From: Longimicrobium sp.
GTDB lineage: Bacteria; Gemmatimonadota; Gemmatimonadetes; Longimicrobiales; Longimicrobiaceae
Assembly: GCA_036387335.1 (NCBI GenBank)
Contig: DASVTZ010000087.1
Span: 1-35,990 of the forward strand
DNA: 35,990 nt
Reading direction: 5' to 3'
The position numbers and the translations under genes were made by a program. The notes beneath the pieces are model-generated. The model had not been told where the DNA came from. It ran no database searches and worked only from the letters and a program-made list of their open reading frames with translations. Within the stretch, counting starts at the first letter, position 1. Each line of letters starts with the position of its first letter. Below, piece by piece: positions 12,544 through 27,189 of the stretch.

Positions 12544-12576
12544 AAGTGCGTTAGTGCGTCAGTGCGTTAGTGCGTT
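12544..12576. repeat. Left inverted-repeat arm of the four-helix-bundle cassette
   Basis: Four tandem copies of an 8-bp unit close to AGTGCGTK. Read against the reverse complement of 13044-13076, 30 of 33 positions match. The same array bounds the element at 26878-27189. Confidence 0.85.
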
Positions 12577-12655
12577 GGATCCGTCGCGTGGCGCAGGCGA
12601 GAGTGTGGATGCGGGGTATCTAGTGAGACATCCACTCACCAAGGGTATCGGCGCG

Positions 12656-13018
12656 ATGAAGGTGCAGCAGTTCGAGGACCTCGTAGTCTGGCAGAGGGCG
12701 AAGGAGCTCTCGGTTCTGATCTATCAATCGAGCGCCGGAGGGCGGTTCTCGCGGGATTATGCGCTGCGCGATCAGATTCGCAGAGCCGCCGTCTCCGTGA
12801 TGTCGAACGTGGCGGAAGGCTTCGAGCGGTACAGCCGCCCCGAGTTCCGCCACTTCCTCTCGATCGCGCGGGGCTCCGCCTCCGAGGTGCGCAGCCAGCT
12901 TCACCTCGCGCGCGAGCTCGGCTACCTCACCGGAGAGGAACACCGACAGCTACACGACCACTGCGTCGAGCTCAGCCGCCTCCTCGCCGCCCTCCGTGCA
13001 TCCACCATCCCAACCTGA
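12656..13018 (+). CDS. Four-helix-bundle protein (23S rRNA intervening-sequence family)
   Basis: A 120-residue protein with the family's typical opening FEDLVVWQRAKELSVLIY and the core FSRDYALRDQIRRAAVSVMSNVAEGF, written in part, then RHFLSIARGSASEVRSQL and LSRLLAALR. This is the S23/IVP family, first seen inside intervening sequences of 23S rRNA genes and related in fold to the Avd accessory protein of diversity-generating retroelements. Its biochemical role is unknown. The ATG at 12656 fits the conserved start (MKVQQFEDL); no clear Shine-Dalgarno is seen. It is not next to an rRNA or reverse transcriptase here. It lies inside a 533-bp interval bounded by inverted AGTGCGTK arrays, which suggests a mobile cassette. 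Confidence 0.9.
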   Translation: MKVQQFEDLVVWQRAKELSVLIYQSSAGGRFSRDYALRDQIRRAAVSVMSNVAEGFERYSRPEFRHFLSIARGSASEVRSQLHLARELGYLTGEEHRQLHDHCVELSRLLAALRASTIPT

Positions 13019-13043
13019 CCGAACACGTAACTCGAAGCCTTCA

Positions 13044-13076
13044 AACGCACTCACGCACTAACGCACTCACGCACTT
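13044..13076. repeat. Right inverted-repeat arm of the four-helix-bundle cassette
   Basis: Inverted partner of 12544-12576, starting 26 bases after the gene's stop codon and followed by CTTTTATTC. Three mismatches in 33 positions against the left arm. No obvious target-site duplication outside the two arms. Confidence 0.85.
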
Positions 13077-13184: not shown

Positions 13185-14204
13185 ATGGAGCTCGTGATGA
13201 ACGCTGACAAGACCAAGGCGCTGAACGTCGCGATCGGGCAGATCGAGAAGGCGTACGGCAAGGGCGCGATCATGCGCATGGGCGTGGACGGCCCCATGGT
13301 GAAGGTGCGCGCCATCTCCACCAGCGCCATCCACCTGGACGCCGCAATCGGCGTGGGCGGGGTGCCGCGCGGCCGCATCACGGAGATCTTTGGGCCGGAG
13401 TCGTCCGGCAAGACCACGCTCTGCCTCCACCTGATCGCCAACGTCCAGGCCGAGGGCGGCATCGCGGCTTTCGTGGACGCGGAGCACGCGCTCGACATCG
13501 AGTACGCCCGCAAGCTCGGCGTGGACGTCGACAACCTCCTCGTCTCTCAGCCCGACAACGGCGAGCAGGCGCTGGAGATCACCGAGACGCTCATCCGAAG
13601 CGGCGCGGTGGACATCGTGGTGGTGGACTCGGTGGCCGCCCTCGTGCCGCGCGCCGAGATCGAGGGGGAGATGGGCGACAGCCACATGGGGCTGCATGCG
13701 CGCCTCATGAGCCAGGCACTGCGCAAGATCACCGGCGCCATCAACCGCAGCCAGACCACGCTCGTCTTCACCAACCAGATCCGCGAGAAGATCGGCGTCA
13801 TGTTCGGCTCGCCGGAGACGACCACGGGCGGGCGCGCGCTGAAGTTCTACGCTTCGCTGCGGCTGGACGTGCGACGCATCGGCACCATCAAGGACCGCGA
13901 CGTCGCCGTCGGCAACAAGACGCAGGTCAAGGTGGTGAAGAACAAGGTGGCGCCGCCCTTCAAGCAGGTCGTGTTCGACATCATGTGGGGCACCGGCATC
14001 GACCGCTTCGGCACCATCGTGGACCTCGGCGTGGAGCACGACGTGATCTCCAAGAGCGGCTCCTGGTTCAACTACGGCGACCTGCGCCTGGGCCAGGGCC
14101 GCGAGAACGTCAAGGCGTTCCTCCAGGAAAACGTCCCCCTTGCCACCGAGATCGAGGACAAGGTAAAGGTGAAGGCGGGGTTCGGGGTGGTGGAGGTGGC
14201 GTGA
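13185..14204 (+). CDS. recA: Recombinase RecA
   Basis: Forms filaments on single-stranded DNA, drives strand exchange and stimulates LexA self-cleavage. The 339-residue protein has the Walker A motif GPESSGKTT (about residues 69-77), the family signature [14 protein letters not shown], the L2 region [21 protein letters not shown] in part, and the Walker [10 protein letters not shown]. The C-terminus is short and lacks the long acidic tail of the E. coli protein. Two ATG codons are possible, 13185 and 13197 (MNADKTK), each with a GGAG at suitable spacing; the second gives the more usual N-terminus. The gene stands alone: recX and alaS do not follow. A repeat block starts at once after the stop. 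Confidence 0.97.
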
Positions 14205-18992: not shown

Positions 18993-20057
18993 TCAGTCCC
19001 CCGCCTGCTCCAGCAACGGCTGCTCCCGCGCGGCGCGGGCCTCCAGCGAGCGCTCGGCTTCCTGGCCGCTGGCGAGGCCCAGGTTGCGCAGCACCTCCAG
19101 GATCACCCCCGCACGCACGTCCGCCTCGTCCGCCTGCTGGGCGAAGCGATCCGCGGAAACGTCGCCGCCGCGGGCGCGCAGGCGGTCGGCCATGCGGCGC
19201 GAGAGGACCGCGCGCTCCTTCAGCGCCATCATCGCGGTCCACAGCGCCGACTCCACGGCGTGGCCCTGGTGCGCCAGCAGCGACTCCACCCCGTACGCGT
19301 GCCCCACGCGGCAGCGGTAGCGCACCACCTCCCCCTCCTGGATCTCGAAGAGCGAGCCGTGGCACTCCGGACAGCTGTAGCCCGCGGGGGTGCCGGGACG
19401 CTCGTCGTCCTGCATCGCGTCGAAGTCCATCACCGCGATGTCGGCCTCTTTGTCGAGTCGGTTGGGCACGGGCGGCTCCGAGTCGGGAGAGGGGCGGGTG
19501 GCGAGCTCCACCAGGGTGGCGGAAATCCGGTCGAGGGGCAGCACGTGGTCGGCGCCCACCACCGTCAGCGCCGTGGCCGGCATCCCCGGGTGCAGCGCGT
19601 CCGCCGGGTCCTGCACCACGGCGGCGCCGCCGCGCGCGCGCACCGCGCCCAGCCCGGCCGTGCCGTCGTCCAGGTTGCCGGTGATGACCACGGCGGCCAC
19701 GCGCTGGCCGTACGCGCGCGCGGCGCTGCGGAAGAGGGTGTCCACGGCGGGCCGGTGCCCGTTCTCGCGCGGGCCCCGGGTGAGGCGGATGCGCCCGTCT
19801 TCCAGCAGGAGGTGGTGGTCCGGGGGGGCCACGTAGATGGTGCCGTGCTCTATGGGGTCGCCGTCGGAAGGGTGAACGGCGGGGAGCACGCCGGCCCGGC
19901 TCAGGATGCGGGGGAGCACGCTGGTGCTGTACGGGGGGAAGTGCACGACCACGAACACCGCGGCTGGAAGGTCGGCGGGGAGCCCCGCCACGATCTGCGC
20001 CATCCCCTCCACCGCCCCCGCCGAGCCGCCCATCACGATGATGTCTCTTCCCGTCAC
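18993..20057 (-). CDS. CheB-type methylesterase with C-terminal zinc-binding extension
   Basis: A 354-residue protein with a CheB catalytic domain (about 5-185) but no receiver domain. It has the catalytic Ser motif VMGGSAGAVEG, His in VVVHFPPYS, and Asp in VITGNLDDGTAGLG. In chemotaxis, CheB removes methyl groups or amides from receptor glutamates. The C-terminal 140 residues add a putative zinc site (SCPECHGSLF and RYRCRVGHAYG, so CxxC plus CxxGH) and a helical tail. The GTG at 20057 is chosen because GGGAG lies seven bases upstream; the frame is open far beyond that point without family similarity. It is divergent from a second CheB-like gene. Confidence 0.85.
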   Translation of the reverse strand: MTGRDIIVMGGSAGAVEGMAQIVAGLPADLPAAVFVVVHFPPYSTSVLPRILSRAGVLPAVHPSDGDPIEHGTIYVAPPDHHLLLEDGRIRLTRGPRENGHRPAVDTLFRSAARAYGQRVAAVVITGNLDDGTAGLGAVRARGGAAVVQDPADALHPGMPATALTVVGADHVLPLDRISATLVELATRPSPDSEPPVPNRLDKEADIAVMDFDAMQDDERPGTPAGYSCPECHGSLFEIQEGEVVRYRCRVGHAYGVESLLAHQGHAVESALWTAMMALKERAVLSRRMADRLRARGGDVSADRFAQQADEADVRAGVILEVLRNLGLASGQEAERSLEARAAREQPLLEQAGD

Positions 20058-20163
20058 TGAGTCGCTCCCGAAAGTGTCGATCTGCACCCGCTCACCCTGC
20101 GCGGGCGGCAATTCCCATGCACGGACGTTTACAGTTGCTTGACACGGAGGGGTGCGCGGGCGA

Positions 20164-20792
20164 GTGTTACTATCTGTCCCGATTCCCACCAATCCCATTC
20201 GCCGGACCCATTTGCATTCCACGCCGCCGCCGTGCCTGGTGGTGATCGCGTCCTCGCTCGGGGGGATCCAGGCGCTGCGCCACATCCTCTCCGCGCTCCC
20301 GGCGGACCTCCCCGCCTCGGTGGTGGTGGTGCAGCACCTGGAGCCGGGGCGCCGCAGCCGGCTGGCGGAGGTGCTGGGGATGGTCAGCGCGCTCCCCGTG
20401 AGCGAGGCGCGGGGCGGCGAGGCGCTGGACGACGCGCGCGTGTTCGTGGCGCCGCCCGGCCGGCACGTGGTGGTGGACGGCGGCGGGCGGCTCCAGCTTT
20501 CGGATGCGCCCCCCGTCCGCTTCTCGCGCCCCGCGGCCGATCCGCTCTTCGCGTCGGCCGCGGAACGGTTCGGCGCGGGAGTGGTGGGCGTGGTCCTCAC
20601 CGGGTGCGACTCCGACGGCAGCCTGGGGGTGCGCGCCATTAAGGAGGCCGGCGGCATCGTGCTGGTGCAGGACCCCGCCACCGCCACCGTCGAGAGCATG
20701 CCCCGCAACGCCATCGCCACCGGAACGGCGGACGACGTGCTCCCCCTGGAGCAGATCGCCGGCCGCATCGTACAGGCCGTAACCCAGAGCGC

Positions 20793-20796
<4 letters not shown>
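20164..20796 (+). CDS. Second CheB-type methylesterase, stand-alone domain
   Basis: About 210 residues, a bare CheB catalytic domain. Visible are CLVVIASSLGGIQALRHIL (Ser-x-Gly-Gly catalytic serine), VVVQHLEPGRRS (His), VFVAPPGRHVVV and VVLTGCDSDGSLGVRAIKEAGG (Asp), all typical of CheB. It lacks the receiver domain that normally controls activity. The start is uncertain. GTG 20152 sits only one base after a GGAGG, GTG 20164 has that site 13 bases away, and TTG 20212 lies nearer the conserved fold. The stop overlaps the start of the CheR-like gene by ATGA, so both are translated together, probably as an enzyme pair with opposite actions. Confidence 0.85.
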
Positions 20797-22658
<1,862 letters not shown>

Positions 22659-26877: not shown

Positions 26878-27189
26878 AAGTGCGTGAGTGCGTTAGTGCG
26901 TGAGTGCGGGGCGGCGTCGCGAGATGCCGCCCCTGGCTGTATTCGAAAAAACCAACTGCAATCTCACGCGGAGACGCGGAGACGCAGAGAGAACAACCTG
27001 AGAAAAGCCTTACACAGAGAACACAGGAGGAACTGAAAGCCACAGAGAAAACCTCTGGCTGTTCTTCCTCTGTGGCTCTGTGTCTCTGTGTGAGCCATGC
27101 AGTCGCGGTTCTCTCTGCGCCTCCGCGTCTCCGCGTGAGCCCCGCTGTTCAGTCCCTCCGCACTCACGCACTAACGCACTCACGCACTT
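26878..27189. mobile_element. MITE-like nested palindromic element
   Basis: A 312-bp gene-less element. Its ends (26878-26908 and 27159-27189) are a perfect 31-bp inverted repeat made of the 8-bp unit AGTGCGTK. Inside lies a second inverted repeat (26963-26994 and 27108-27139) of GGAGACGC/GCGTCTCC units with one mismatch in 32. A third, imperfect pair (CACAGAG and CTCTGTG stretches) lies inside that. The ends match those of the four-helix-bundle cassette at 12.5-13.1 kb. It starts five bases after the aldehyde dehydrogenase stop. No transposase and no clear target duplication are seen, so mobility is inferred. Confidence 0.6.

Follow-up and report, generated by a model that had tools for sequence, protein, structure and literature searches.

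Several described systems come close to the element reported here, a block of DNA (12544-13076) within the window, i.e. the whole stretch of 35,990 nucleotides that was analysed. Intervening sequences (IVSs) in 23S rRNA, as found in Leptospira and Coxiella burnetii, have been a loose end since 1990. In the portion of PMC4990558 drawn on here, the Coxiella IVS is described with a 28-bp terminal stem and with three GACAGAT heptamers in tandem, located in the stem region ahead of the S23p open reading frame (ORF); its mobility is discussed in that portion, while the generality of the heptad arms is not. The second system is RAYT/REP/BIME (PMC2817692), in which a gene lies between two inverted repeats, many gene-less copies exist, protein and repeat co-vary, and repeat abundance is linked to the cognate gene.

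The third group consists of tandem heptamers, namely the STRR of Calothrix, GGGAATC of Xanthomonas and GGGGA(C/T)T of Nostoc (PMC4692102), and TAACTGA of Beggiatoaceae (PMC4679880). As far as the parts of these two papers used here go, they are intergenic arrays with a unit of about 7 bp, as in our element, and those of Xanthomonas often form convergent inverted pairs, like the cassette arms. X. campestris has 70 such pairs, generally with no association with mobile elements (PMC4692102), and no evident mechanism of spread is given for TAACTGA (PMC4679880); PF05635 genes are not mentioned in the same parts of either paper. By eye, the words of Calothrix, Xanthomonas, Nostoc and Beggiatoaceae fit R-G-n-n-n-T-n.

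PF05635 proteins, so far met chiefly in rRNA insertions, are widespread without a known function, and tandem heptamers occur in several genera without a known origin. The bAvd accessory proteins of diversity-generating retroelements are pentameric four-helix bundles of the same broad fold; the window locus is unlike their setting in that no retroelement is present and reverse transcriptases do not track the arrays. A single testable architecture would join PF05635 proteins, tandem heptamers and rRNA intervening sequences, and the resulting cassette system would parallel RAYT/REP while having no recognisable transposase.

The cassette between glgE and recA

The window cassette shares with the rRNA IVSs the protein family and the terminal inverted repeats, here of 33 bp, which form a stem around the S23p/IVP ORF (Table 1). 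On the other hand, it lies in the glgE-recA interval instead of 23S rRNA, its 8-bp unit has a different sequence, and hundreds of gene-less copies of its array exist. As with RAYT/REP, two inverted copies of a genome-dispersed repeat surround the gene, and the abundance of the repeat is linked to the cognate gene, with exceptions; unlike RAYT/REP, PF05635 is not a Y1 HuH transposase, and each arm is a tandem array and not a palindrome.

Table 1. Position and strand, in window numbering, of the cassette and of the other arrays discussed in the text.
Feature	Position	Strand	Remarks
Left arm of cassette	12544..12576	+	One base and four AGTGCGTT/C units (12545-12576); matches right arm at 30/33 positions
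Leader, left arm to start codon	12577..12655	+	
PF05635 gene (23S_rRNA_IVP, four-helix bundle)	12656..13018	+	120 aa; profile match 127 bits
Right arm of cassette	13044..13076	-	Four AGTGCGTK units in inverse orientation (13044-13075)
Further ACGCGGAG/CACAGAG-type arrays	16579-16603/16680-16704; 29270-29293/29309-29333; 34871-34894		
Gene-less AGTGCGTK hairpin, left outer arm	26879..26910	+	
Inner array ACGCGGAG, left	26966..26990	+	Word type of the PF13366 gene arms
Innermost ACACAGAG-type array, left	27012..27026	+	Read from sequence
Innermost CACAGAG-type array, right	27068..27091	-	
Inner array TCTCCGCG, right	27112..27136	-	
Gene-less AGTGCGTK hairpin, right outer arm	27157..27188	-	

The match of the protein to the PF05635 profile (E 4e-37) is far above the curated cut-off of 33.8 bits and places it in the family; in the profile search PF05635 was the only hit, and no nuclease, recombinase or Y1 HuH transposase family was matched. 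The neighbouring genes are glgE (PF11896/PF21702) on the minus strand and recA on the plus strand with its start at 13185. Since these two are divergent, the hairpin is not a terminator of convergent genes. Among the AGTGCGT-armed cassettes compared, leaders of about 80 bp are recurrent, and their sequence is poorly conserved. An earlier note on this DNA had placed the gene between inverted AGTGCGTK arrays and had reported a second pair of such arrays with no gene; both claims were borne out, the second pair being the 26879-27188 element, inside which there is no PF05635 gene.

The two-unit AGTGCGTK pattern has 13 matches in the window compared with 0.05 expected by chance. In the 5.8-Mb draft genome from which the window was taken (G000), 471 + 517 overlapping two-unit matches were counted; the genome-wide figures come from pattern searches and from a 726-kb sample that partly consists of regions picked for their arrays. 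In this sample, the arrays were oriented (+) then (-) in 22 pairs compared with 1 neighbouring pair oriented otherwise, the interiors of the pairs measured 15-491 bp, and the only PF05635 gene found inside a pair was that of the window. Twelve of the 17 interiors of at least 40 bp either contain a TGTCATCCTGAG palindrome or resemble interiors that do. Since most sampled pairs hold other palindromes, the arrays are not private to the PF05635 gene; a one-to-one link between array and gene was rejected, and the tie to this gene alone that the earlier note implied was too narrow. The bases outside the arms are non-random, with CGGA ahead of the first unit being the commonest on both sides, which suggests that the elements have defined ends.

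In most AGTGCGTK hairpins the loop holds a further palindromic element (TGTCATCCTGAG...TCAGGATGACA; L004, L005, L011, L013, L015, L307). Hairpins of different words are also nested within one another, and the 26879-27188 element has two nested inverted arrays, of ACGCGGAG and CACAGAG units, inside its outer arms.

Inverted arrays around PF05635 genes of many phyla

We scored the arms by aligning each left flank locally with the reverse-complemented right flank. The window genome has three PF05635 genes, and all three are enclosed by inverted tandem arrays with a different word each, the words of the other two being GGGGAAT (L001) and AGTGCCW (L002). In the bacterial family, 23 of the 29 PF05635 loci score at least 40, compared with 0 of 337 control positions placed at even intervals in the window genome. 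A cut-off of 40 was used in the family because 25 is too loose in the G+C-rich window genome, where 67/337 control positions pass it. For the class, genes were picked by protein score alone; among 42 PF05635 genes from 11 genomes, 32 score at least 40 and 38 at least 25, and genomes with several such genes show a different arm word at each. Across many phyla, 76% of 76 PF05635 loci score at least 25, the threshold kept for the cross-phylum conclusion, with nulls for that set of 5.4% (each flank paired with a flank from a different locus) and 2.5% (shifted windows). It was found that the arms, with a median length of 34 bp, match themselves at 0.54 for lag 7, 0.49 for lag 14 and about 0.26 for most other lags. 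The dominant period is 7 or 14 in 43 loci and 8 in 11 loci, 8 bp being the length of the window's own unit. The pattern of a gene between inverted short tandem arrays therefore holds for PF05635 genes across bacteria, more broadly than had been claimed for the window.

About one quarter of the cross-phylum PF05635 loci are without clear arms. Five PF05635 genes in cyanobacterial plasmid operons (L177, L178, L179, L182, L187) also have no detectable arms and possibly represent a domesticated branch. We count both against the cassette model. The cassettes of certain genera of the class end in long irregular inverted repeats with scores above 75 and not in clean tandem words (L274, L277, L278, L291, L292). 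Among the fetched loci, searched with six rRNA motifs, no PF05635 cassette lies inside 23S rRNA.

If the arrays were just common intergenic repeats and the gene happened to fall between two of them, the many AGTGCGTK pairs of the genome, most without a gene inside, would be accounted for. Such a coincidence would leave unexplained that each of the three PF05635 genes is enclosed with a word of its own; it is refuted by the two cross-phylum nulls together with the control positions, and we give it practically no chance of being right.

Presence and absence at corresponding sites

The closest relative of G000 is G013, whose recA-glgE flanks are 93-95% identical. Its alignment with the window runs up to 12546 and starts again from 13083, and the whole block is absent; in place of the cassette stands a CACAGAG-array hairpin about 90 bp long. 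The glgE-recA interval of the closest relative therefore lacks the block, but it is not a clean empty site. At another site (L038), an AGTxCTA cassette is present in G013 with its left boundary at most 5 bp from the arm, while G000 has REP-type palindromes (L306). Two other G000 cassettes are common to G013 at the same sites.

Similar comparisons were made in cyanobacteria. In Anabaena sp. 90, a cassette with long AGGTGAC/AGGGAAC arrays lies between cas6 and cas4, where a 98-99% identical Dolichospermum plasmid has another palindromic repeat. Picosynechococcus PCC 7003 has a cassette between cas10 and cmr3, and PCC 7002 has a 12-bp gap there. In Nostoc edaphicum a cassette lies between nrdB and nrdA, and Calothrix NIES-4105 is without it. 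PF05635 genes in cas loci have been listed among CRISPR-Cas-associated functions (PMC3936711); the cas-locus cases compared here are cassettes that are absent from a close relative, which would change the reading of such genes. An IVP gene common to two Calothrix plasmids was not accepted as a recent jump, because the neighbouring annotated genes also correspond and a larger plasmid segment is probably shared.

AGTGCGT-armed cassettes with a PF05635 gene also occur in G009 and G017; they are at non-orthologous loci, since only gene and arms match the window, so that cassettes with these arms stand at different places in three species. The earlier note had proposed that the gene travels as a unit; block-wise presence and absence and the same-arm cassettes elsewhere support this, but transposition itself was not observed. 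No target-site duplication is visible at the compared junctions (85-99% identical), and the loci and genomes compared showed no transposition event, no excision product and no catalytic partner. The inverted repeats are there, but among the sampled loci there is no transposase-bearing element with AGTGCGTK ends. Because another palindrome stands at several of the "empty" sites, exchange or loss fits as well as insertion. Our conclusion is that PF05635 genes make up hairpin cassettes which appear and disappear as units, and that the 23S rRNA IVSs are a special case that landed in an rRNA gene.

The arms could instead serve the gene as a device for RNA processing or regulation, for instance an RNase III stem, with presence and absence reflecting occasional loss and ordinary horizontal gain. 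The cassette transcript is predicted to fold into a long stem (z -4.8 compared with shuffles), and RNase III cuts the stems of rRNA IVSs, according to the part of PMC4990558 used here. Such a device would explain neither the hundreds of gene-less hairpins with the same word nor the clean block-wise gain between operon genes where the relative has only a 12-bp gap, and we consider it quite improbable.

Arm words, a proposed mechanism and companion hairpins

When the 7-bp words of 79 loci are aligned in phase, a common R-G-T-n-n-T-n appears, with G at position 2 in 88%; the information of the words is 1.93, while 20 shuffles average 1.46 and reach 1.56 at most. Word similarity tracks protein similarity, as indicated by a Mantel r of 0.39 overall (P<0.001), 0.29 for pairs below 70% identity and 0.29 for loci outside the phylum, with 0/2000 permutations reaching the observed r in each of these three tests; for pairs below 55% identity, r is 0.14 (P 0.0015). 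This co-variation shows that word and protein are inherited together as a unit, and it fits recognition of the arms by the protein, short of proof.

Where the cognate gene is present, dispersed arrays are commonest. Of the 21 family genomes, 3 have GGYTATC arrays, with 43, 8 and 3 matches, such counts being inflated by overlapping matches for long arrays, and all three carry an IVP gene of that subfamily as judged from the sequences (Fisher P 0.003). For example, G006 has GGCTATC arrays and a GGCTATC-armed gene, and in G003 both are GGTTATC. AGTGCC arrays have 46-232 matches in the six genus members with an AGTGCC-armed gene and 0-46 in the four without (P 0.009 within the genus), where gene absence is uncertain because many genomes are incomplete drafts; there are none in eleven genomes of other genera. 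The abundance of AGTGCGTK arrays shows the same trend more weakly (P 0.028). Orphan arrays without a cognate gene also exist (AGTxCTA hairpins in G000; AGTGCGTK in G015, which has no IVP match) and are counted against the cassette model. From co-variation and abundance we infer that the protein or another factor recognises the arms, as the earlier note had supposed.

The reading that we favour, with confidence somewhat better than even, is that the block is an IVP cassette, a hairpin-type element found throughout bacteria with a PF05635 gene as its sole gene and inverted arrays of a 7-8 bp word as its ends, whose proteins would bind the arrays and promote the spread of the hairpins. The solved relatives 2GSC and 2RLD have five chains each, and XCC0516 (2GSC) is a homopentamer with its four-helix bundles in a ring, as given in the part of PMC4990558 used here. 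A PF05635 protein built like this ring of five could bind the arrays with perhaps one subunit per word; that the median arm corresponds to about five 7-bp words is suggestive only. The array-bound protein would then promote the copying or insertion of hairpins that carry its word, and the gene-less hairpins would be non-autonomous derivatives, as REPs are for RAYT transposases. Cutting and joining must come from elsewhere, because the PF05635 protein matches no nuclease or recombinase family; host replication and repair or a partner factor may supply them. In its widest form, to which we give a little less than an even chance, IVP proteins would be the sequence-recognition factors of very widespread transposase-less mobile hairpins with their own 7-8 bp word in each subfamily, and the rRNA IVSs as well as the heptamers of Xanthomonas, Nostoc, Beggiatoaceae and others would all be their products. 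Taken together, the comparisons suggest that PF05635 cassettes are a class of selfish DNA element that has gone unnoticed, and that bacterial tandem repeats which have long been a puzzle may have arisen from them.

Recombinational exchange between the dispersed arms is still a serious alternative. The arrays would spread by a general process such as slippage, template switching or hairpin repair, and the gene would move passively between the dispersed arms with no part for the protein. We consider this unlikely on balance. It agrees with sites that swap one class of hairpin for another, with the diverse and nested contents of AGTGCGTK arms, with hundreds of scattered arm copies about 30 bp long, and with a protein that has no catalytic domain; but it explains neither why most phyla have their PF05635 genes enclosed when ordinary positions lack such arms, nor the word-protein co-variation, nor the way dispersed arrays follow the cognate gene.

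The favoured IVP cassette is not the only gene-plus-hairpin system in these genomes. Twelve of the 17 loci with PF13366 (GxxExxY, PDDEXK-like) genes in the bacterial family are enclosed by inverted ACGCGGAG/CACAGAG-type arrays (e.g. L192-L202, L208), and gene-less hairpins with such words are common. This system is like the PF05635 cassettes in that a gene stands between inverted short tandem arrays and gene-less hairpins occur in the same genomes; it is unlike them in its unrelated protein family and its 8-9 bp words of another kind. The architecture of the PF13366 arms is not described in the open literature searched, and reports elsewhere are possible. As a required partner, the PF13366 nuclease was rejected, since it was not found in the draft genome G006 despite the IVP arrays there. 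In the genomes studied, RAYT (Y1_Tnp) genes lie between inverted REP-type palindromes (L293, L295-L298), and where G013 has an IVP cassette, G000 has palindromes of this REP type. The three systems (PF05635, PF13366 and RAYT) therefore coexist, nested in the same intergenic sites.

The RAYT genes with their own REP-type flanks, and the presence of such palindromes at a cassette site in a relative, would suit a conventional mobilizer acting in trans: the hairpins would be moved by RAYT (Y1) transposases or by a reverse transcriptase, with the PF05635 gene carried along as cargo. Arrays are nevertheless present without Y1_Tnp in G006, G019 and G010 and without RVT_1 in G009, G014 and G015, although drafts may miss genes, and a gene captured by chance would not turn up again and again at the majority of PF05635 loci in many phyla. 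As the presence of Y1_Tnp or RVT_1 does not track the arrays, RAYT and reverse transcriptase were rejected as movers, and we regard a mobilizer of this kind as slightly more improbable still than the RNA device.

Words of the PF13366 type form the inner arms of the window's 26879-27188 element and the hairpin at the recA site of G013. The further ACGCGGAG/CACAGAG-type arrays of the window (Table 1) are probably gene-less hairpins of the PF13366 type. The window also contains a 42-bp tandem repeat of about 5 copies (22054-22259) inside an ORF on the minus strand (18993-22217) with a CheB_methylest domain; this coding repeat is probably a coiled-coil stretch.
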